Below, piece after piece: positions 35,876 to 47,885 of a DNA stretch of 64,000 nucleotides; the stretch's first letter is position 1; each line of letters begins with the position of its first letter. The DNA is from Aequorivita aquimaris (GTDB taxonomy: Bacteria > Bacteroidota > Bacteroidia > Flavobacteriales > Flavobacteriaceae), in the NCBI RefSeq assembly GCF_001573155.1, contig NZ_JRWG01000001.1:496001-560000 (forward strand), read 5' to 3'. Under the pieces are notes generated by a model. The model did no database searches. It was not told the origin of the DNA and worked only from the letters and a program-made list of their open reading frames with translations. Made by a program: the position numbers and the translations under genes.

Positions 35876-36616
35876 TTAACGGAACATTTCCAAAAATGCT
35901 TTTCGGTTGGTTTTTGAAATCGGCACACGGTTGCGGTTTTCCAGTACCAAATAACCTTCATTTTCAAAACTGCGCACTTTTTCGAGGTTCACGATATGCG
36001 ATTTGTGGCATTTGAAAAATATTCGCCCCAAGGAAGGTTCAAATTTCCCGAGGTTATAACTGCTTAAAAGTTCTGTATTGTTGCTTAAATGAAATTTTGT
36101 ATAACCCTGAAAACCTTCCAAATGCAGCACCTCGTCTTGAGGAATAAAGGATAGCCCTTTTTCGGTAGGCACGATAATCTTGTTTCTTTTTGAAATGGTT
36201 TCCGTGAGAACTTCTATGAGTTTGTTGCTGCTTTCCAATTGTTGTTTTTCCCGTATTGTGGTTATGGCTTTTGTAATTGCATGTTTCAGATCGTCATCAT
36301 CCACAGGTTTTAAAATGTATCCAATTGCCGATTTTTTTAACGCTGCCACGGCATATTCGTTGTAGGCGGTTACAAAAATGACCTGAAAATCCAATCCGTC
36401 CAGTTCCGAAAGCAGTTCGAAGCCATTCAATCGTGGCATTTGTATATCGAGAAATAGAATTTCGGGAGGATCTTTTTTTATATATGCTATGGCGTCCTCG
36501 GGTTTTTGAAAGGTAGCGGTTATTGAAATCTCGGGAAAAAATTTTTCCACCTTTTGTTGCAGTCCCTTTAGGGCAGAAAATTCATCGTCTATCAATATGG
36601 CCGTTATAGTCGTCAT
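35876..36616 (-). CDS. LytTR-family response regulator
   Basis: This 246-residue protein has a receiver domain with IDDE at 9-12, the phosphoacceptor Asp57 in LFLDIQMP, and the conserved Lys in GYILKPVDD near 107. A LytTR DNA-binding domain follows (about 145-245; GFQGYTKFHLSNNTELLSSY and CHKSHIVNLEKVRSF). It controls transcription in response to the partner kinase. Its start overlaps the kinase stop by 4 bases (ATGA at 36613-36616), so the two are co-translated. Confidence 0.95.
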   Translation of the reverse strand: MTTITAILIDDEFSALKGLQQKVEKFFPEISITATFQKPEDAIAYIKKDPPEILFLDIQMPRLNGFELLSELDGLDFQVIFVTAYNEYAVAALKKSAIGYILKPVDDDDLKHAITKAITTIREKQQLESSNKLIEVLTETISKRNKIIVPTEKGLSFIPQDEVLHLEGFQGYTKFHLSNNTELLSSYNLGKFEPSLGRIFFKCHKSHIVNLEKVRSFENEGYLVLENRNRVPISKTNRKAFLEMFR

Positions 36617-39393
36617 CGCACTTTCTTAATTTTAAAGGTAGTAATATTGCCTGTATCGATTTTCTCCGGAAATACTTCAGCATTAAAAAATTGTATTTCC
36701 CATTGTTTGGAACGGTTTAAGACCGCAATTCTATTTTCAAGTACTGCGGAAGAATTTACCTTGCCGTTGGGTTTCTTTCTTGAGTTTGAAAAGCCCACGC
36801 CGTCATCCATAATTTCCACCATAAATTCCTGCTCGTCAATGCTACGAAAATACAGATTGATATTGCCCTCTTTTTCTTTATTGAAGATACCGTGGTTCAC
36901 AGCATTCTCTACAATGGGCTGGAGCAGCATACTGGGAATGGTGGTTTCGGGTAAATTTAACGTAGAATCTATATGTATCTGATAGTCCAATTTCTCCTTA
37001 AAACGGAGCTTTTCAATATCCAAATAGTTTTTCAGCAATTTAATTTCAGTTTCCAGGGGAATTTCACTTTCTTTTGAAAGCTCAAAAAACTGGCGTATCA
37101 ATTTTGAGAATTTCACCAGATATTTTTCTGAAGTTTCAAAGTCGTTATTGTTGATATAATACTGGATAGCAGCAAGCGAGTTGAAAACAAAATGCGGGTT
37201 CATCTGGGCGCGCAGGGCATATAGCTCATATTCAGCCATCTTTTTCTGTGCGGTAATCTTGGCGGTTTTTTTTGAAACTTCCTTGTTTCTGAAATAATAG
37301 AGCATTCCGCCTAAGAGCGAAATGCCCGCCAGCCAAAACACGGCTTTTGCCAAAGGCCTTTGCCACCATAATGGCAAAATTGTGAAATTGGCGGTTTCCA
37401 TTAGGTTTCCGGTTTTCAATTCCAGGGTGTACTTGTCTGGTGGCAGATTTGAAAAATTAAGGTTTGAAGCGGTTGTAGTTGTCCAATCTTTTTGAATGGG
37501 CAGCAAACGGTACCTGTAGCTCAGTTGGTTTTGGGCGGACGAAAAGTCTATGGTGGCAATGGAAAAATCTACGCTATTGTCGGTGGTGTAGCGCATTGCA
37601 GGTTCGGAGGCTGGGATAGGACTTTGATTGAAAAGTGCCTTTTCAACGTAAATTTTCAAAAGTTGGGGCTGCTTATAAAGAGTTCTCGGAAGAATGGCAA
37701 CCCCATCGTCCGTTGATACAAGCAAATCATCGCCCACCGGCAGAATAGCGTTAACCTTTTTAGAAGGCAATCCGTCGTTTTCGTTTAAAGTGCCTGTATA
37801 TTGATAATCGGGACCTGCTTTTTTATATTGTAAAATTCCGCTTTCAGAAGCCAGCCAGATAAAATACTTGTTTGCAACAGCGCTTTCAACACTCAAAAAT
37901 TCTGAATTCGGCAATAGTGATACCTCCTTGAGGTCTGTGAGATAAGAACCGTGCCCGTCAGTATTGACCAAAAATTGGGAGTCCATAACCTTAGTAAGGC
38001 TCAAGATAGGTTTCTTTAAAAGATTATCGGCAAGGGATACGGAGGTTATGTTTCCGTCCGATAGTATTTTTAAACCATCAGAAGTTGCCAAGAGCAGGGA
38101 ATCGCGAAACCTCAACAAATCCCTAACGCCGTAATAATCGAAGGTTTTGATTCGCTCAAAGGTTTCTGGGTCTATTTTTATTACCCCTGAGGATATATTT
38201 CCGTATAAAAAACCGTTGAGATAGACCAAGCTCCTTACGCCACCAATTTTATTGAAATGATCAACTTGGTGCCGGCTGGCTGCTTCATTCGCAATTTGGA
38301 TGGTTTTCTTTTCAGAACAGAAAAATGAACTTTCAAGGGAATCTAAATATACCGCGTTGAAAACAAAACTTTTATCCGTTATAAACGGCCTAAACTTTTT
38401 TTGAAGTGAATCGTATTCATAAAATCCTTTATTGTACACATTGGCCACTATCCGTTTACCTACTCTGGCCAGTTGATCTACTTTTTGATGCGGAAGCACG
38501 TAGGTACACTGGCGCTTTACCTGCGGCAACATAAAGATTCCACGCGAAAAAGTGGCGCACCAAATGTTCCCACTTCTATCTATCATTGAAAAATAGGCCT
38601 TTAGATTGGGGGGTATCTTAACCACCTTATCCATCTCAAAATTATCGTCCAGTATGCCCACAAAGTCAAATCCCGTTATCTGGATTTGATCGTTCACAAA
38701 ATGGTTGCGAATAAAATTGGGGTTTTGGTGACTGGCGTATTTTTTAAATTCCCTTTCATAAATTTTCCCGCTAAGCAGGTTTATTATGCTAAAACCTTCG
38801 TTGTAGAGCATTACCATGATAGAATCGCGATTTCTGAACCTTGTTACGGACTTTTCTTTAAAAGCGGGAAGCTCTGCCAATTGTACCGCTTTTTTATGAA
38901 GCTTTTTAAAATGGTATTTTGAGGTATCCTGTACCTCTGAAAATGTGAGGTTTTTCCAACATCCGTTTTCCAGATAAAACCATTGCCCGCTATTTCCGAC
39001 TATAAAGGTGTTACTATAAAAATTGGTAGATGCCGGAAACATTACGACCCCCGCCTGGCAATTGGGAAAGGTATGCACCTTCTCATTTTCAATATACCCC
39101 AGCAAAGTTGATTTTGAAAAGAACCAAATCCTATTTTCGGCATCAACCCGTAGGTCCCAAATGTCGTTGGTTGGCAATCCATTGCTGGTATTGAAAACCT
39201 TAAATTCCCTTCCGTTAAATTTTGCCATACCCTTATCGGTAATGGCCCAAATAAAACCTTCGTTATCTTGGGTCAATCGGTAGACTCGGTTGCTGGGCAG
39301 GCCATCCTTTATGGTGTAATTCACTAATTCCTGGGAAGCACAAAAATTCCACATCACAATAAATACAATGATATGGAATTTTGTTCTGCTCAT
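36613..39393 (-). CDS. Beta-propeller sensor histidine kinase (LytS-type)
   Basis: The ATG at 39393 is chosen because it begins a signal peptide (MSRTKFHIIVFIVMWNFCAS); the open frame extends further upstream without support. The 926-residue protein has a large periplasmic sensor made of two-component-regulator propeller repeats (IKDGLPSNRVYRLTQDNEGF, NEGFIWAITDKG, NDGLPSKKVNAILP). A Y_Y_Y domain follows (YRLLPIQKDWTTTT, LPPDKYTLELKTG), then one membrane helix (about 700-720) and a His_kinase/HATPase module with RAQMNPHFVFNSLAAIQYYI (phosphoacceptor His) and QPIVENAVNHGI. It is hybrid-like in sensor but lacks a receiver domain. Ligands of such propeller sensors are often glycans or unknown envelope cues. 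Confidence 0.93.
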   Translation of the reverse strand: MSRTKFHIIVFIVMWNFCASQELVNYTIKDGLPSNRVYRLTQDNEGFIWAITDKGMAKFNGREFKVFNTSNGLPTNDIWDLRVDAENRIWFFSKSTLLGYIENEKVHTFPNCQAGVVMFPASTNFYSNTFIVGNSGQWFYLENGCWKNLTFSEVQDTSKYHFKKLHKKAVQLAELPAFKEKSVTRFRNRDSIMVMLYNEGFSIINLLSGKIYEREFKKYASHQNPNFIRNHFVNDQIQITGFDFVGILDDNFEMDKVVKIPPNLKAYFSMIDRSGNIWCATFSRGIFMLPQVKRQCTYVLPHQKVDQLARVGKRIVANVYNKGFYEYDSLQKKFRPFITDKSFVFNAVYLDSLESSFFCSEKKTIQIANEAASRHQVDHFNKIGGVRSLVYLNGFLYGNISSGVIKIDPETFERIKTFDYYGVRDLLRFRDSLLLATSDGLKILSDGNITSVSLADNLLKKPILSLTKVMDSQFLVNTDGHGSYLTDLKEVSLLPNSEFLSVESAVANKYFIWLASESGILQYKKAGPDYQYTGTLNENDGLPSKKVNAILPVGDDLLVSTDDGVAILPRTLYKQPQLLKIYVEKALFNQSPIPASEPAMRYTTDNSVDFSIATIDFSSAQNQLSYRYRLLPIQKDWTTTTASNLNFSNLPPDKYTLELKTGNLMETANFTILPLWWQRPLAKAVFWLAGISLLGGMLYYFRNKEVSKKTAKITAQKKMAEYELYALRAQMNPHFVFNSLAAIQYYINNNDFETSEKYLVKFSKLIRQFFELSKESEIPLETEIKLLKNYLDIEKLRFKEKLDYQIHIDSTLNLPETTIPSMLLQPIVENAVNHGIFNKEKEGNINLYFRSIDEQEFMVEIMDDGVGFSNSRKKPNGKVNSSAVLENRIAVLNRSKQWEIQFFNAEVFPEKIDTGNITTFKIKKVR

Positions 39394-39464
39394 ATTAAAA
39401 GGGAGAGTATCAATCTTTTTTCCAATAACTAAGGTAAGGAAAATATAGCGCAAGAAGGAGGGTG

Positions 39465-41405: not shown

Positions 41406-41930
41406 ATGGAAGAAGTAACCCAAATTATTAGTTATGTAGCCTATCTATTGCCCGCAATTGTTGTCGGCATAATTGCTTATTTTTTCTTTAAAGGCCACAC
41501 TGCCAATGAGGAAGGCCGCAGAAGATATTTGGTTCAAAAAGAAGCTCAAAAACAAGTTTTACCCCTCCGGCTTCAAGCATATGAACGTATTACTTTATTT
41601 TTGGAACGAATAGATCCCAATAAGTTATTGGTACGAGTGAAACCATTTTCAGATTCTAAAGACGATTACGAAAATTTATTGGTAAAAAATATTGAGCAAG
41701 AGTATGACCATAATTTAACACAACAAATTTATGTAACTCCTGAATGTTGGAACTTAGTGAACGCTGCAAAAAATGCAACTATACACGTAATTCGTCAAGG
41801 AGCAATGCACGAAAAGGACGGTAACGTAGACAAAATGCGGGAATGGTTACTACAAAATTTTATGGAAGAAGTTACACCATCGCAAAAAGCCTTGGCATAC
41901 GTTAAAAAAGAGGTCAGCGAACTTTTTTAG
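41406..41930 (+). CDS. Membrane-anchored protein of unknown function (DUF7935-like)
   Basis: This 174-residue protein has one N-terminal membrane helix (VAYLLPAIVVGIIAYFFFKG, about 11-30). A long charged helical domain follows: QKEAQKQVLPLRLQAYERIT, then LFLERIDPNKLLVRVKPFSD, and a C-terminal EVTPSQKALAYVKKEVSELF. It resembles a small flavobacterial family listed as DUF7935; function unknown. It has a strong promoter with an operator-like dyad, and its stop codon overlaps the stop of the convergent response-regulator gene by 4 bases. Confidence 0.82.
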   Translation: MEEVTQIISYVAYLLPAIVVGIIAYFFFKGHTANEEGRRRYLVQKEAQKQVLPLRLQAYERITLFLERIDPNKLLVRVKPFSDSKDDYENLLVKNIEQEYDHNLTQQIYVTPECWNLVNAAKNATIHVIRQGAMHEKDGNVDKMREWLLQNFMEEVTPSQKALAYVKKEVSELF

Positions 41931-42559
41931 GGTGTAAATAAATTGTGGTGAATTGCAAAAAGTACGAGCCCAATTCTATTTTTTACCTTTAGTTTTTTGT
42001 GGACCGAATCCCGGTAACCCTCCACAGTTTTATAACTACAGCACATGGCTTCGGAAATTTCTTTATAACTCATATCGGTGCAGGCAAGTTTTATAAACTC
42101 AATTTCTTTTTCTTTTAGCTCAGTATCAATTTCATTCTCCAAAGAGTCCACAAGGATTTGTGATACTGTATTGGTATAATAATGACCTTTTTCCATTACT
42201 TGAATCAGAGCTTCTTCAAGAATATTTTTTTTTGTGTCTTTTAACAGATAGCCGCGGGCACCTGCTCTGAGCATTTTCAAAATAGTGTATTCATCTTCTT
42301 CTATGGAAAGAGCGAGCACTTTTACGTTAGGAAAATCTTTTCTAAGAATTTCAGTTGTTTCAATTCCGTTAAGTATGGGCATCTTTATATCCATAAGTAC
42401 TAAATCGGGGATATTTTTTTTATCATCAAATTTATCGAGCAGCTCACTCCCATTTTTGCATAGGTATAGTACTTTAAACTTCTTAAAGTCTTGAACCAAC
42501 CCGCCAATGGCTTGGGAAAGCAAAAAATGATCGTCAACTACTACTACGGAATAATTCAT
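41927..42559 (-). CDS. NarL/LuxR-type response regulator
   Basis: This 210-residue protein has an N-terminal receiver (VVDDH at 7-11, phosphoacceptor Asp57 in VLMDIKMP, Lys in GYLLKDTKKN) and a C-terminal LuxR helix-turn-helix (about 145-205; DMSYKEISEAMCCSYKTVEG, then YRDSVHKKLKVKNR). It is the partner of the histidine kinase 32 bases upstream. Its 3' end overlaps the convergent gene at 41406-41930 by 4 bases. Confidence 0.95.
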   Translation of the reverse strand: MNYSVVVVDDHFLLSQAIGGLVQDFKKFKVLYLCKNGSELLDKFDDKKNIPDLVLMDIKMPILNGIETTEILRKDFPNVKVLALSIEEDEYTILKMLRAGARGYLLKDTKKNILEEALIQVMEKGHYYTNTVSQILVDSLENEIDTELKEKEIEFIKLACTDMSYKEISEAMCCSYKTVEGYRDSVHKKLKVKNRIGLVLFAIHHNLFTP

Positions 42560-42591
42560 TTTATAAAAGGTTTTTCATATCTACTCAAAAT

Positions 42592-43344
42592 TCACAGATA
42601 ACTATATTTAAGGTGCAATGCTGTACCGTGATCTTTTACGGAATTAATTTTCAACGTTGAATTGATCAATTGGGCACGGGTTTTCATATTTTTAAGTCCT
42701 ATTCCCATAAAGTTATCTGTTTTATCAAAACCCACTCCGTTGTCTTCCGCAGAAATAGTCAAAACCTCATCAGAATAATTTAAAACTACCTTTAGGGTCG
42801 AGGCTCTGGAATGTTTTATTGTGTTTGAAAAAAATTCCTGCAATATCCTAAAAAGAATAATTTGGGTATTACTCTCAATGGGCCTTACTTTACCCTGCAC
42901 TTTTAATTCAGCAGCAATAAATTTAAGTCTATTGAATCGTTCTATTTCTAGACTTACAGCTTCTTGCAGACTCAAGCTTTTTAATGCTTCAGGATTAATC
43001 AATTTTGAAAGCGCCCGCAACTCATCAATGCCCGTGCCTATGGTTTCAGAAACTTCATTTAACAATTCGGGCCTTTCCAGCGCCATTTGGGCCTGTATTT
43101 TGGCCAAGGTCATCAACTGGCCGATATTATCGTGCAACTCCCAACTAATGTTTCGCAAAGTTTCCTCACGAATCTCTATTTGTGATTCTGCCAATTCACG
43201 GTCGAACGCTTTTTTCGCTTCCTCCTGCTCTTGTAACAATCGGTTTTTTCTACGAGAAAAAACACTGAAGAGCACGATAACAATAATTACTAATGTTACC
43301 GGAATGGCTATTGCCGCAATTATTATGATCTCTTTTTCATCCAT
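42592..43344 (-). CDS. Sensor-less histidine kinase (HisKA_3 type)
   Basis: This 250-residue protein has one N-terminal membrane helix (about 6-29), a short coiled linker, a dimerisation/phosphoacceptor region with NISWELHDNIGQL (His71), and an HATPase domain with ILQEFFSNTIKHS (N box), AEDNGVGFD (G1) and GIGLKNMKTRA (G2). It has no periplasmic or cytoplasmic sensor domain, so signal input must come from another protein. The start lies inside the preceding 7-TM gene with a 22-base overlap (43323-43344), which suggests a functional pair. Confidence 0.93.
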   Translation of the reverse strand: MDEKEIIIIAAIAIPVTLVIIVIVLFSVFSRRKNRLLQEQEEAKKAFDRELAESQIEIREETLRNISWELHDNIGQLMTLAKIQAQMALERPELLNEVSETIGTGIDELRALSKLINPEALKSLSLQEAVSLEIERFNRLKFIAAELKVQGKVRPIESNTQIILFRILQEFFSNTIKHSRASTLKVVLNYSDEVLTISAEDNGVGFDKTDNFMGIGLKNMKTRAQLINSTLKINSVKDHGTALHLKYSYL

Positions 43345-43979
43345 AGAAATCCTGTCAAAAAGAACAAATACATAATGATTATGAGCGAAGACTGTATTAC
43401 AAGTAAAATCTCAAAGAAACTGTCCGGTTTGTAAAACCAAGTTCTAATGATTTTTATGGGAATATAGCCAATATAAAATAAAAATAGCCCTACACTTACC
43501 CAAAACAATAAATCGTTTTTTATTACCAATACTAGTGATGATTGTAAAATATTGATATAATATAAGGTGATGCAAAAAATCAGGATTGCGGCTCCAGCTA
43601 TGTATGTTCTAGCAAAAGAATTCTCAAAAATACCTGTAAATACTACATCACTTAAAAAAATTAACCAAAAAACAACTAAGCCTATTTTAATATTCTTTTT
43701 GAATCTATCGTTTTCAATCACCTTCATAAAAATGTAGAAGAAAAATGAAAAATGAATTAGATAATATAAATTGTAAATAAACTTATTAAGGGGAATATCA
43801 TATATAATGTCCTTTAGGAAATAGCCCAAATATTCCGTAACCATGGTAAGAAACAAAATAATGGGCAATAGCCTTAAGGTTGTATGTTTATAAAGCGGAA
43901 ATTTTATCAGCGATATTAGAAAAACACTGACATATAATGTCAAATATGTATTTTTCAATATGTCTAAAATTGTTTCCAA
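43323..43979 (-). CDS. Seven-TM membrane protein, candidate sensor partner of the kinase
   Basis: This 218-residue protein has seven predicted membrane helices (about 12-28, 36-54, 67-88, 98-115, 123-145, 155-175 and 190-212) and very short loops. Aromatic residues are abundant (NLYYLIHFSFFFYIFMKV). No known domain was recognised. It overlaps the histidine kinase gene by 22 bases and follows a lipoprotein gene by 14 bases. I infer that it provides ligand sensing or membrane input for the kinase, but no residue proves this. Confidence 0.88.
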   Translation of the reverse strand: METILDILKNTYLTLYVSVFLISLIKFPLYKHTTLRLLPIILFLTMVTEYLGYFLKDIIYDIPLNKFIYNLYYLIHFSFFFYIFMKVIENDRFKKNIKIGLVVFWLIFLSDVVFTGIFENSFARTYIAGAAILIFCITLYYINILQSSLVLVIKNDLLFWVSVGLFLFYIGYIPIKIIRTWFYKPDSFFEILLVIQSSLIIIMYLFFLTGFLWMKKRS

Positions 43980-43993
43980 AAATTAAATGCCCA

Positions 43994-44680
43994 CTAGTTA
44001 TTATCCCCAAAGTCACTAGTGCCAGGTGGGGGAGCAACTCCTCCATCATTCAAAATGACACTTGTAGTTCCACTTCCCAGGGTTGCGGAATTGGTTGAAA
44101 TAAAAAATCCAGCCTCATTTACACTTCCTTGAGGCTCATCTTGTGTCTGGTTTTTGTCCTTTCCGCGTAGTCCGTTCCTATTAATGGGCAAAGCAGTATA
44201 CACACCGTCTATTTCTTCAAGATAAAAACCAACGTTCTTGCCTTCATAAGCCATTGTAGGCACTACGAAAAAACTATTTCTTTTTGGATATTTAACCGTA
44301 TCGCCATTTGGGAATTTATCACTGTCAGGATAGTTTGAAAGGTAGAAACGCAATGTTTGTATGTCCACTTTAGCCTCTTTGGCCTCATGCTCAATATATG
44401 CTATATATTGCTTTATGGTTTCCAAATCATATTCCGCATAACGGGTAGGGGTAAAATTTGAACCATCAGCGGCAATGCTGTCTTCATATTTTTTTATTAT
44501 CGGAACTCGTCTTTGCGAATAAGCATCATACATTTCCTGAGCGCGATCAACCGAAATTATATGGTCTTTCGGCGGACCCTCATATGGTGGCTCGGTATGG
44601 GTTGTTGGATCTTGACAGCTAAAAAACATTAAGTTAATACAACTTAATAACAATAACCGTTGAATAGTCTGTGTTTTCAT
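43994..44680 (-). CDS. Lipoprotein of unknown function, first gene of the two-component module
   Basis: This 228-residue protein has a lipoprotein signal with lipobox FFSC (Cys22). The mature part starts with a Pro-rich linker (THTEPPYEGPPKDH). A helical region follows (SVDRAQEMYDAYSQRRVPII, YAEYDLETIKQYIAYIEHEA), then a beta part with TVKYPKRNSFFVVPTMAYEG and FYLEEIDGVYTALPINRNG. The Gly-Ser-rich tail ends NDGGVAPPPGTSDFGDNN. No family was recognised. It is the first gene of the leftward module with the 7-TM protein, the kinase and the regulator, and could be a periplasmic ligand-presenting component. Confidence 0.85.
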   Translation of the reverse strand: MKTQTIQRLLLLSCINLMFFSCQDPTTHTEPPYEGPPKDHIISVDRAQEMYDAYSQRRVPIIKKYEDSIAADGSNFTPTRYAEYDLETIKQYIAYIEHEAKEAKVDIQTLRFYLSNYPDSDKFPNGDTVKYPKRNSFFVVPTMAYEGKNVGFYLEEIDGVYTALPINRNGLRGKDKNQTQDEPQGSVNEAGFFISTNSATLGSGTTSVILNDGGVAPPPGTSDFGDNN

Positions 44681-44872
44681 ATGTAATTTGGTTTTAAAGT
44701 TATAGTATAAATTTAGTCACATTAAGAGGGAATTTAAAATGACCTTTTCCCTAAACGTAGAGTGAAGATAAATCAAAAGAGTTGATTAGCAGCAGTCTAT
44801 TATAACTTACGATGAAAAAACAGGGAAAACACTGAAAGAATAAGGGAAATACCCCAGCAAAATGTAGGAATA

Positions 44873-45787
44873 TTAATCGTCTTTTGTGCGAATTTCGTTT
44901 AATTCATTATTTTTCTGATCAGCATATTGGTAACCTAGTTCCCACCACTTGGTCATCATTTTCTTATCAAATATCAAAGAATTTGTCGTCAAAACCGTAG
45001 GAGTATAATAAAGGTTTATAATAACATCTTTATTTGTCGCGACAAATTTGCCAATGCGGATGTTCTGTTTCTCGATACGATCCGCCATATAATTGTGCAT
45101 ATTGGTGAGCAATGAAAATACATTTTTTGAGGGAAGCCGATTGTAATAGGTAATCTCGGTTTCCAACACAATTACATCAATATGTGTTGCGCCACGGTTT
45201 ATAGCCTCTTCAATAGGGACCATGCTTCCAAAACCGCCATCGGCATATTCACAGCCATCTTTTTTTACAAGACTCATAAAAGGAGTGAAATTTGAAGAAA
45301 TCCAAATCCAGTCCAAAAAATCCTGATACTCAAAATCGTTGATCGATTTATATTCTACTTGATTCAATGAAAGATTTGAAACCGTTACAACCACTTCTTT
45401 TTCCGAAGCTTTTAAATTATTGAACTCTATTTCAGTCAGGGTATTTGCTATCAGTTTTCGTAAATTTAAACTCTCGCCAAAGGTTTTTTTTCCTTTTATG
45501 AAATTGCGAAGCACCGTATAATGATCAATAGCGATCTGTTTTCCCCCAAATTTATCTTGCTTAATTACAAACGGACAACTGTTAAATATGCTTTTTTGAT
45601 TAACGGATGTATAAACCTCTTTAATTTTCTCAACCTTATCTAAAGCCAAATGTGAAATAAGCAAACTGCCCGTTGAAGTTCCCACAAAAAGATCATAATT
45701 ATGATGAAGCTCTTCCATTAAATACTGCGCCACGCCGCCCGCAAATGCACCCTTACTTCCGCCGCCCGAAATTACCAACGCTCTCAT
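44873..45787 (-). CDS. Patatin-like phospholipase
   Basis: This 304-residue protein has the patatin catalytic features: oxyanion motif SGGGSKGAFAGG at 7-18, nucleophile GTSTGS at 36-41 (Ser38), and the catalytic Asp in YADGGFGSMVP near 195. There is no signal peptide. It is a Ser-Asp dyad lipase acting on phospholipids or acylated substrates. Its start codon overlaps the stop of the M1 peptidase gene by 4 bases (45784-45787), so the two are translationally coupled. The C-terminal region (YYTPTVLTTNSLIFDKKMM) is typical of bacterial patatins. Confidence 0.92.
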   Translation of the reverse strand: MRALVISGGGSKGAFAGGVAQYLMEELHHNYDLFVGTSTGSLLISHLALDKVEKIKEVYTSVNQKSIFNSCPFVIKQDKFGGKQIAIDHYTVLRNFIKGKKTFGESLNLRKLIANTLTEIEFNNLKASEKEVVVTVSNLSLNQVEYKSINDFEYQDFLDWIWISSNFTPFMSLVKKDGCEYADGGFGSMVPIEEAINRGATHIDVIVLETEITYYNRLPSKNVFSLLTNMHNYMADRIEKQNIRIGKFVATNKDVIINLYYTPTVLTTNSLIFDKKMMTKWWELGYQYADQKNNELNEIRTKDD

Positions 45788-47832
45788 TCCTTTATAATTG
45801 AGTTTAAATAATTAGCCGCTTTTTCTGAAATTTGTCTGCCCAAAACCTTTATTTGTTCGTGATATTTTTCATTCTGAAGTAATTCATTCAACATTTCTCT
45901 TGAAGGTTTTGAGAAGCGCCAAGTGGGATGCACACAGGCTTCCGCTAAATTTTTAAGCGTTTCCAAATTCCAAAGCTGGAGTTCGTTTACATATTCAAAC
46001 GCCTTTTCACGTATCTCGAAACTATAAGCTGTGGAAGTATAATTTTTCAATTCCTTTAAATAATTCTCCTTTTCAGATTTTTCATAATCTTCTGTAATCA
46101 ATGCTAAAGTTAACCACAACTGCCGGATGTTTTTATTCTGAAAACCCTCAATTCCTTTTGTTATGTTGAGATATTCTGAGCTTTTCTGCGGAAACTGCAT
46201 CCATAATTGATAAAGTGCGGTTTCCAAGGTTACATAAGAATTATCGCTTAAAAGGGTTTCATATTCGGTTTGGAGTTCCTTTAAAATGGTTTGCAACGAA
46301 AGCGCCACCGCCTGCCGCACGTAAAGATTATTGCTTTCGAAAGCTTTTTTATACAGCGGAAGCGTTTCGGATATGGGTTCATCAACCAATTGATACACCG
46401 CTTCCTGCCCAATAAAATCATTCGGAAATGTGAGCGCGGTTTTTAACTGATCTTTTTTATCTGCCAGTGGCGTTGCCCGAAGCGCTGAAATCTCAAAGTA
46501 TTTTTTTATAAACGTAGATTTCAGCAAAGATTGATAAGCTTCTTCACTTTGAAAAGCAGTCTGTTGCAACCAATCCCTTTCAAAATCTGTAATATCAACT
46601 TGCGAGACTGCTTTCACTTCCTTTAAAAAATCTTCGGTAGAAACATTTTTGAATTTATATTTCTCCAAATAGTTTTTGATTGCCGCTTTAAAGGCCTCGT
46701 TACCTATTCGTTCCCGTAAAATATGCAATGCCCATGCTCCTTTTTGATAAAACGTAAGCGAACTCGCTCTTGGATTTAACAATGATTCGCCCTTGCCCTC
46801 ATCGCTCATTGCTTTAAATTGCTCAGCGGTTTGGTACAATTGCCAGTAATAATAATCTTCACCAAAAATATCTTTTTCTGCTAGCAAAGCATAATAAGTC
46901 GCAAACCCTTCCTGCAACCAATGGTCTTCCCCTGCTTTTTCCGTAACCAAATTGCCAAACCATTGGTGGGCCAGTTCGTGGGCGTTTACGTTTATGTAGT
47001 TTCTATCGTTAAAGCCTATGGAATCTACCACAAACGCTTCGGAGAAAAATGTGGCGGTTGTGTTTTCCATTCCGGCATAAAGAAAATCGCGAACGGGAAC
47101 TTGCTTGTAGTTTTGCCAGGGATAAGCAACGCCGATTTCAGTTTCCAAAAAGTCAAAAATTTGTTTGCTGTAGCGATACGTGGGTTCTACTTTTAGAGAA
47201 TCTGAAGGTTTATAATACAATTCAATAGGGATTCCGGAAGTTGAAACGAGTTCTTTTTTATTGAAATCGCCAATGGCAAAGGCTACCAAATAACTGGACA
47301 TGGGTTCTTTCATATCGAAATACCTAACCTCAGGAAATTCGCCGGCCTCCATTAATTTTCCGTTAGCTACTACTGCTTTATCAATTGGAGCATATAGCAA
47401 TAAATCAAACTCAATTTTATCGTTAACGTCATCAATACTTGGCAACCAGTGTGAAGTGTATTTCCCTTGTCCCTGCGTCCAAATTTGATCTTCAAAAAAA
47501 TAAAGGGTTTGCTTTGGTTTCATCTCATAATAAAAATCCGCTATGTAACTATTCCCCTTTTCAAAATTACCAACAAACCAAATCTTTTTTTTGTCAGAAG
47601 TTATTTTGAAATTTTTAGTTTCAATTTCATTTATATGAATATCTATAGCATCCATAAAAATGGAATCGGTTTCTTTTAAAACTTCGAATGTGGCTAAATA
47701 TCGCCCAGCTATTTTTTTTTCTAAAACATTGGGTTTAATAAAAGCTTCAATTTTCAAAAAATCCACAACATCAGTCTGCTGTGCAAATACCGTGAAACTT
47801 GAAAAAAGAAAGGCAATAAGAAACTTTTTCAT
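45784..47832 (-). CDS. M1-family zinc aminopeptidase, secreted
   Basis: The ATG at 47832 starts a signal peptide (MKKFLIAFLFSSFTVFAQ); the upstream in-frame extension was rejected. The 682-residue protein has the substrate-binding YAGMENTTATFF and the zinc motif NAHELAHQWFGN, followed about 18 residues later by the third ligand in EGFATYYALL. A HEAT-like helical C-terminal domain follows. M1 enzymes remove N-terminal residues from peptides; signal-bearing forms act in the periplasm or outside the cell. It is coupled to the patatin gene. A functional link between peptidase and lipase is only suggested by the overlap. Confidence 0.93.
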   Translation of the reverse strand: MKKFLIAFLFSSFTVFAQQTDVVDFLKIEAFIKPNVLEKKIAGRYLATFEVLKETDSIFMDAIDIHINEIETKNFKITSDKKKIWFVGNFEKGNSYIADFYYEMKPKQTLYFFEDQIWTQGQGKYTSHWLPSIDDVNDKIEFDLLLYAPIDKAVVANGKLMEAGEFPEVRYFDMKEPMSSYLVAFAIGDFNKKELVSTSGIPIELYYKPSDSLKVEPTYRYSKQIFDFLETEIGVAYPWQNYKQVPVRDFLYAGMENTTATFFSEAFVVDSIGFNDRNYINVNAHELAHQWFGNLVTEKAGEDHWLQEGFATYYALLAEKDIFGEDYYYWQLYQTAEQFKAMSDEGKGESLLNPRASSLTFYQKGAWALHILRERIGNEAFKAAIKNYLEKYKFKNVSTEDFLKEVKAVSQVDITDFERDWLQQTAFQSEEAYQSLLKSTFIKKYFEISALRATPLADKKDQLKTALTFPNDFIGQEAVYQLVDEPISETLPLYKKAFESNNLYVRQAVALSLQTILKELQTEYETLLSDNSYVTLETALYQLWMQFPQKSSEYLNITKGIEGFQNKNIRQLWLTLALITEDYEKSEKENYLKELKNYTSTAYSFEIREKAFEYVNELQLWNLETLKNLAEACVHPTWRFSKPSREMLNELLQNEKYHEQIKVLGRQISEKAANYLNSIIKE

Positions 47833-47885
47833 TTTAGTGAAGGACAATTTAATTAGCGAAAGCAAATTACAAATTTTCAACCATT

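Follow-up and report, generated by a model that had tools for sequence, protein, structure and literature searches.

A short histidine kinase beside a lipoprotein and a seven-transmembrane protein in Aequorivita aquimaris: a candidate split sensor

From where does a histidine kinase without a sensor domain take its signal? This question is raised by a four-gene module in a 64,000-nucleotide stretch of the Aequorivita aquimaris genome (RefSeq assembly GCF_001573155.1, contig NZ_JRWG01000001.1, positions 496,001 to 560,000 of the forward strand). The whole stretch is called the window hereafter, and coordinates refer to it unless another locus is named. The module, entirely on the minus strand, encodes in this order a lipoprotein (LP), a seven-transmembrane (7-TM) protein (TM7), a short histidine kinase (HK) and a response regulator (RR). 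An earlier note, made from the letters of the sequence alone, had proposed that the lipoprotein and the 7-TM protein gather the signal and pass it to the kinase. Here, the module is compared with its relatives in Flavobacteriaceae and across the phylum. We put the probability that it is a multi-component two-component system with a sensor divided among three polypeptides at about 0.68; the split sensor is the best-supported reading among those weighed. It is built on the gene order, the linkage in both directions, the sensorless kinase, the hydropathy topology, the conserved tail of the partner protein, the swap of kinase and regulator, and the losses at the inner face of TM7.

The four genes and their products

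The features of the module are the following (aa, amino acids; N-out, N-terminus outside; ORF, open reading frame).

43994..44680, minus strand: LP, lipoprotein of an unnamed family, 228 aa (family alignment)
43323..43979, minus strand: TM7, seven-transmembrane protein, 218 aa, TTG start (hydropathy, model, alignment)
43323..43344, minus strand: overlap of the TM7 gene end and the kinase gene start, 22 bases (ORF coordinates)
42592..43344, minus strand: HK, histidine kinase, 250 aa, one N-out membrane helix (Pfam, hydropathy)
41927..42559, minus strand: RR, NarL/FixJ-type response regulator, 210 aa (Pfam)
44681..44872, minus strand: intergenic region 5' of LP, presumed promoter, with a GC-rich block (alignment)

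The genes lie where the earlier note had placed them, and every coordinate was correct, including the 14-base gap between LP and TM7 and the 22-base overlap between TM7 and HK; 32 bases separate HK from RR. A search with the TM7 protein placed the 14 nearest loci in Aequorivita or a near relative (58-97% identity). All 14 of these Aequorivita-like loci keep the same order with similar spacings, and therefore the order is not due to chance. In the 15 loci that include the window the TM7 start codon is TTG or GTG and never ATG, as if translation were kept low. The 22-base overlap likely reflects translational coupling, and overlap or close spacing of the two genes recurs in the locus maps of relatives.

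The kinase was said to have one membrane helix and no sensor domain, and this description holds. Only HisKA_3 (7.3e-07) and HATPase_c (3.5e-09) were found, both over the Pfam cut-off, together with H71 in the motif ELHDNIGQ, an N-box and G-boxes, and a single hydrophobic segment with about five residues ahead of it. RR carries Response_reg (2.1e-21) and GerE (1.9e-10) by Pfam, with the receiver aspartate D57 in LVLMDIKMP (position counted by hand).

LP and TM7 of the window, which the earlier note could assign to no family, both lack any Pfam or NCBIfam match up to an E value of 1. LP has a lipobox with Cys22 (N-terminus ...LMFFSC-QDP), a conserved core at about residues 37-142 and the C-terminal tail LNDGGVAPPPGTSDFGDNN. 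Cys22 is invariant in the alignment of the 14 close loci, not across the wider members. The body of LP is variable, with a mean column identity of 18%, and R111, Y113, P141 and T142 of the core are conserved. The best hit of LP in a PDB profile search (E 0.77) was taken as chance.

TM7 has seven segments by hydropathy. The best of five structure models built with 14 sequences (predicted local distance difference test, pLDDT, 84.8; predicted template modelling score, pTM, 0.82) is a bundle of seven helices (2-25, 34-58, 64-87, 91-114, 123-146, 157-182 and 187-213). From the positive-inside balance of aligned sequences, 160 of 164 TM7 proteins are N-out with the C-terminus inside, four are ties and none is reversed; a crude count made sequence by sequence gave seven segments in 88/108 and N-out in 90/108. 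Across the family E49, N65, Y69, N70, Y140, S162, P174, Y204 and G210 are conserved.

What kind of protein, then, is TM7? The solved folds nearest to the model are G-protein-coupled receptors (GPCRs) and rhodopsins, with the best Z of 13.0 for the GPCR part of LYCHOS; Z was at least 8 in 891 of 1000 chains, which were pre-selected from a Foldseek list, and such values lie within the helical-bundle background stated for the tool. The TM-score against proteorhodopsin is 0.58, in a PDB that is rich in GPCRs, and Foldseek with the model gave no match at E 0.001 or better. We therefore claim for the model a GPCR-like arrangement and nothing beyond it.

Several other relationships were considered and dropped. 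Weak Pfam matches to 7TMR-DISM (PF07695) occur in 9 of 96 TM7 members (best 0.0014; none for the window protein at E 10), and the hhalign probability against the TM7 profile was 2.7%, with 3.8% for the reversed control. Kinship with HisKA_7TM (PF16927) was not supported either (0.8%; reversed control 0.3%). Weak matches to DUF6768 (12/96, best 0.0014) and DUF2231 (8/96), and to a short stretch of Na,K-ATPase in a PDB profile search (E 0.0064), were taken as chance. Neither a plasmid search with TM7 nor a phage search with LP gave any match, so that a mobile or phage origin is not supported. A fold search against viral proteins gave no match at E 0.001. TM7 fused to a kinase was not seen among the loci; there were three weak matches in long frames (L240-L242), presumably CcmF-like and BlaR-like. 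A fusion of TM7 to the kinase by programmed frameshift, the overlap being in the -1 frame, was rejected on topology: the C-terminus of TM7 is inside, whereas the kinase helix has to begin on the outside. By the same topology, direct fusion would give the kinase helix the wrong orientation, and the parts may be separate for that reason.

Linkage of TM7 and the kinase in both directions

Are the 7-TM and lipoprotein genes linked to kinases elsewhere? A single-sequence search with TM7 in 149 genomes of Flavobacteriaceae gave about 86-88 matches and found the gene in at least 63 of the genomes, a lower bound, since that search missed TM7 genes later found by profile. The 75 loci fetched for matches outside the window gave, together with the window, 76 operons. 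ORFs were called on the fetched loci, and iterated hidden Markov models (HMMs) were built for LP, TM7, HK and RR. LP directly precedes TM7 in 74 of the 76 family-level operons, with HK downstream in 60 and RR in 47.

In a phylum-wide draw of 296 genomes TM7 was found in 57 and LP in 29. From it 60 stretches, seven of them from the window's own family and with several Flavobacteriaceae TM7 places left out, provided 58 loci and 61 operons; L205 and L236, without TM7 by HMM, were dropped before this count, and L244-L248 were left out of the maps. HK lies downstream in 57/61 and RR is present in 49/61. An LP homologue directly precedes TM7 in 29/61, and LP or another small ORF does so in 58/61. 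Two of the four operons without this kinase, L225 and L237, have a PAS-HisKA kinase instead. RR-small ORF-TM7-HK is the arrangement found in L215, L217, L224 and L230, so a rearranged operon still keeps TM7 and HK adjacent. In L071, L111, L117, L182 and L214 a single kinase gene is preceded by three or four TM7 genes, in some cases along with two or more LP genes.

The small ORFs of remote loci are related to LP in part only. Of 30 remote predecessors missed by the LP HMM, 14 that were picked as CPPxC-like and aligned matched the LP profile at 95.3% (reversed, 0.1%); among the other 16, compared with LP singly, L202 reached 89.3% and L198 a weak 20.6%, and 14 were undetectable. Homology of all remote predecessors to LP was thus not adopted.

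The linkage also holds when it is followed from the kinase. The genome of A. aquimaris has ten kinase homologues. The open frames of eight of them measure 551-955 aa; the other two are short, at 272 and 279 aa, and both short kinases adjoin the only two TM7 genes found there by profile. The second of these loci is again complete.

L180, contig C1, 149684-159355: second complete module, LP132-TM7-HK-RR, same genome

In 38 genomes hand-picked from the 149, mostly with TM7 matches, 46 kinases at 7e-48 or better, in frames of 253-297 aa, were found among the matches listed, and TM7 adjoins 45 of them: 31 by coordinates, 3 in tandem operons (L111, L112 and L117) and 11 of 12 whose surroundings were fetched. 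The sole exception is L317, where neither LP nor TM7 was seen. Eight of the 16 distant short kinases listed were fetched as well. The profile finds TM7 beside five of them; at L329 and L332 the corresponding positions are taken by a small ORF and a multi-helix ORF, and neither is present at L335. The earlier note would have taken a lack of linkage of the two genes to kinases in other genomes as one refutation of its reading; that linkage is found, in both directions.

The kinases so linked are short on the outer side. In 119 of them the strongest hydrophobic segment is preceded by a median of 12 and at most 48 residues. The crude count gave one such segment in 55/77. By the aligned positive-inside balance the kinase is N-out in all 109 cases in which a small protein precedes its TM7. 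By motif, 103 of the 119 are HisKA_3-like, five LytS-type and 11 other. In L068, L082 and L190 Pfam finds His_kinase (LytS-type) and Response_reg-LytTR adjoining the same LP-TM7 pair; that is, kinase and regulator have been swapped jointly. The TM7 genes of the five LytS-type loci cluster (Shimodaira-Hasegawa-like approximate likelihood ratio test, SH-aLRT, 91), so the swap may be one event. In addition, the PAS-HisKA kinases of L225 and L237 stand in the place of HK (HisKA below its cut-off in L225), and L227 and L232 have PAS-HisKA_3 kinases. Such swaps would be expected of a receptor that serves as a module for plug-in kinases.

However, could TM7 hold the kinase back rather than inform it? 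In the LiaFSR and VraTSR systems of Bacillota a membrane accessory protein, a short HisKA_3 kinase and a NarL-type regulator are encoded in one operon, and the present module resembles them in having the three together. To our knowledge, LiaF and VraT are not seven-helix proteins and neither system has a tail-bearing partner. The LiaF and VraT families gave no match up to E 1 for TM7 or LP of the window in Pfam and NCBIfam, nor are they among the 25 families listed for the members. On this analogy TM7, with or without the small protein, would act as a brake, restraining the kinase in the way that LiaF restrains LiaS, and the input would come from the kinase helix or the state of the membrane. 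The shared operon logic and the scores of HK against LiaS (76 of 450 bits) and VraS favour it, and LiaF is described as a negative regulator in the available text of PMC3543457. Nevertheless, the long members of this kinase family in the A. aquimaris genome are not beside TM7, and a partner with a conserved tail, together with the polar outer residues E49, N65 and N70, suggests that something is bound. We consider a brake unlikely.

The pair without the kinase, and other points against a split sensor

The split sensor has to be weighed against a number of observations that do not favour it. One of these is that 16 of the 76 family-level operons keep LP and TM7 without this kinase.

L051, L053, L055-L060, L062-L064, L067, L069, L076, L079, L088: kinase-less LP-TM7 loci

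They are arranged as LP-TM7 or LP-TM7-TM7, and L076 as LP-TM7-LP-TM7. No other close short kinase was found in these 16 genomes, except in G129, which has a complete second module; LytS-type kinases, distant short frames (25-30% identity) in G102, G018 and G086 and a 100-aa frame in G037 were left aside. Therefore, the pair can persist alone. Large DUF4842 proteins are encoded just 3' of two of these loci, at 2636-4699 in L062 and 7475-9589 in L076.

Based on these loci, LP and TM7 might be an independent membrane machine for transport or for lipid or envelope handling, whose state the kinase reads or whose expression it controls, as in Bce-type flux sensing. The kinase-less operons are the main evidence for such a machine, and most of the TM7 core remains conserved in them (E49, G52, N65, N70, Y140, S162, P174, Y204 and G210), with the LP tail kept in 16 of their 17 small proteins. 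However, they form a single lineage: the 22 TM7 genes of the 16 loci are one clade (SH-aLRT 99), nested in a set of 29 genes (SH-aLRT 99) of which the remaining seven, including that of the window, have the kinase. On the TM7 tree, which was made by a quick method and rooted at the midpoint, the label 'no kinase' needs four changes, namely the 22-gene clade, the first of the L182 copies, and L225 and L237, where the kinase is of another type. Pfam finds rho, rpsT and proS at the flanks of L053, and an 83-aa ORF, the length of rpsT, is present in 14 of the 16 stretches; therefore a shared genomic site is likely for most of them. TM7 also has no credible enzyme or transporter match in Pfam and PDB profile searches, and only one of the 46 close sensorless kinases among the matches listed is without TM7. 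An independent machine is thus quite improbable in our estimate.

Which parts of TM7 change when the kinase is absent? Five positions invariant in the seven kinase-bearing relatives are changed, 130 and 167 conservatively. L145 and W213 are each replaced by K or R in 15/22, and L151 is mixed; L145, L151 and W213 are on the cytoplasmic side. The losses at the inner end of helix 5 and the loop between helices 5 and 6 fit, modestly, a relaxing kinase-docking face with the core kept. Among the family-conserved positions of TM7, 4/6 are lost within 143-156 and 11/49 elsewhere (Fisher p 0.04, for a region chosen post hoc). On the other side, position 151 is still largely hydrophobic or gapped, and W213 may be held by the overlap because it is encoded across the kinase start codon. 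Moreover, 15 of the 55 family-conserved positions are lost without the kinase and only 4 of these 15 are in 143-156; the other 11 include E16, K31, W67 and N200, of which all but K31 are likewise missing or rare in the closest kinase-bearing relatives.

The partner protein raises a further difficulty. By a simple classifier, the N-terminus of 141 proteins preceding TM7 has a lipobox in 55, another hydrophobic start in 34 and neither in 52, so that 52/141 partners are without an export signal. Even within the A. aquimaris genome, the partner of the window is a lipoprotein and that of L180 has no signal peptide by the classifier. An inverted TM7 facing the unsecreted partners was rejected, since none of 164 is reversed. 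Nor do the outer residues of TM7 differ clearly by partner class, E49, N65, Y69 and N70 being common (N70 in 47-80%). Because many partners lack a hydrophobic N-terminus while the TM7 topology is unflipped, a periplasmic sensor that hands the signal to TM7 cannot be general; with one topology and common outer residues, the partner would have to approach the receptor from one side or the other depending on the operon, or the meeting point has been misassumed. The split sensor does not account for the presence of an export signal in some genomes and its absence in others.

What recurs among the partners is the tail at the C-terminus. A loose regular expression (Pro-Pro, CPxxC or [DN]xG..P within the last 35 residues), written after the tails had been seen, is matched by 126 of the 141 proteins preceding TM7; the remaining ORFs of these loci that reach 100 aa match it in 29 of 844 cases. 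Examples are LNDGGVAPPP in the window, FNFGQSGHPPKAY, PCPPYC and YDMGSLYP, the last of which the expression misses. A tail at or near the C-terminus could suggest that the small protein is the precursor of a signal, with the released tail peptide read by TM7 on the same or neighbouring cells. Many members, however, are without an export signal, residues of the folded core (R111, Y113, P141 and T142) are conserved too, and none of the four genes encodes a protease, although the window has an M1 peptidase gene two genes further upstream. We regard a released peptide as very improbable.

The remaining points against the split sensor concern the predictions themselves. In the crude counts 18 of 108 TM7 proteins and 5 of 77 kinases are N-in, and 22 of 77 kinases have more than one hydrophobic segment. 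Only one of the five TM7 models is confident (the other four have pLDDT 61.1-69.8), and the LP model is unusable (pLDDT 41.9). The proposal that the lipoprotein and the 7-TM protein feed the kinase stands in part. Its core is upheld by the two-way gene linkage; it does not extend to a partner that is always a lipoprotein (52/141 have no hydrophobic N-terminus), nor to the 16 of 76 operons without this kinase.

Surroundings, known systems and a possible mechanism

The neighbouring genes in the window are as follows.

44873-45787: patatin-like phospholipase gene, directly upstream of the module (Pfam)
45784-47880: M1 peptidase gene, preceding the patatin gene with a 4-base overlap
41406-41930, plus strand: DUF7935 gene, convergent, overlapping the end of the RR gene by 4 bases (Pfam)
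36613-39453: gene for a LytS-type kinase (946 aa) that has propeller and Y_Y_Y domains
35876-36616: Response_reg-LytTR regulator gene, its start overlapped for 4 bases by the LytS-type kinase gene

The patatin-like protein is weakly similar to phospholipases of CBASS (cyclic-oligonucleotide-based anti-phage signalling systems) and other anti-phage phospholipases, far below their cut-offs. Of the 14 Aequorivita-like loci, 13 have a 174-aa ORF, the length of the DUF7935 protein, at the same place. Within 44681-44872, 5' of LP, lies a roughly palindromic block that is rich in GC (GGGG..CCC, then T-rich) and is aligned in 13 Aequorivita-like loci; it could be the patatin gene's terminator or else a site for a regulator. 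The modules are flanked by the patatin and M1 peptidase genes in the window, panB at the second copy, rho, rpsT and proS in L053 and proline-synthesis genes in L051. Because the flanks differ between loci, no conserved output gene was found.

Is such a division of labour known? In UhpC-UhpB-UhpA the multi-pass UhpC, a transporter homologue, senses for a HisKA_3 kinase, and the N-terminus of UhpB is multi-helix. UhpB is also the best NCBIfam match of HK, with 106 of 408 bits, far under the cut-off and over the catalytic part only; HK has one hydrophobic segment and is no UhpB equivalog. The 7TMR-DISM receptors couple seven helices to kinases, often with an extracytoplasmic ligand domain. They are fused proteins, and TM7 has no detectable homology to PF07695 in the profile comparison. 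GPCRs and microbial rhodopsins share the seven-helix N-out bundle with the TM7 model, a similarity within the helical-bundle background.

QseEGF resembles the module in that an envelope lipoprotein is encoded with the kinase, as LP precedes TM7 in the window and the 14 close loci. QseG, an outer-membrane lipoprotein, activates the kinase QseE through its C-terminal domain, according to the accessible part of PMC12691602. It binds QseE directly, and that part mentions no 7-TM protein. In contrast, the kinases of the module hardly extend beyond the outer face of the membrane, and in some genomes the partner is not secreted. As excerpted, PMC8534201 describes accessory membrane proteins for intramembrane-sensing kinases, including BceS, which has no extracytoplasmic domain and relies on a separate membrane protein in BceS-BceAB flux sensing; there, however, the partner is an ATP-binding cassette transporter and the kinase has two helices. 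The LytS-type kinase BtsS is a 7-TM pyruvate receptor and, like the module, feeds a kinase from seven helices with the N-terminus outside (extracts of PMC10653868), although the two parts are one chain in BtsS and separate chains here. Judging from these accessory proteins, split sensing is ordinary in principle. The novelty lies in the type of receptor, in the tailed partner family and in the scale; no description of the module was found in the literature searched, which holds for the terms and the library used.

How might the split sensor work? In our proposal, TM7 would be the receptor core in the inner membrane, N-out with the C-terminus inside, and LP, a lipoprotein here, its dedicated ligand-binding or modulating partner, engaging it largely through the conserved C-terminal tail. 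The kinase would supply one N-out helix packed against the TM7 bundle, probably close to where helices 5-6 and 7 end on the inner side. A receptor that changes state would then move the kinase helix and the linker and alter autophosphorylation at H71, from which the phosphoryl group would pass to D57 of RR, which would bind DNA. Physical contact, the direction of the signal, the ligand and the target genes are what we infer in this scheme. A bolder version is rather doubtful: a phylum-wide class of stand-alone GPCR-like receptors, non-covalently coupled through the inner ends of helices 5-6 to interchangeable sensorless kinases (HisKA_3, LytS-type and PAS-HisKA), and gated by a partner whose Pro-Pro tail acts as a built-in ligand and which evolution would have moved between periplasm, membrane and cytoplasm.

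In many Bacteroidota, sensing thus appears to be done by separate, unstudied proteins next to a sensorless kinase. With receptor, ligand-like partner and kinase in three genes, together with the swap, the receptor duplications and the loss of the kinase, the interface is directly testable. If the split sensor is true, many Bacteroidota kinases that look sensorless would have their sensor next door, in two families without a Pfam model, which would allow each such pathway to be annotated and tested as a whole.

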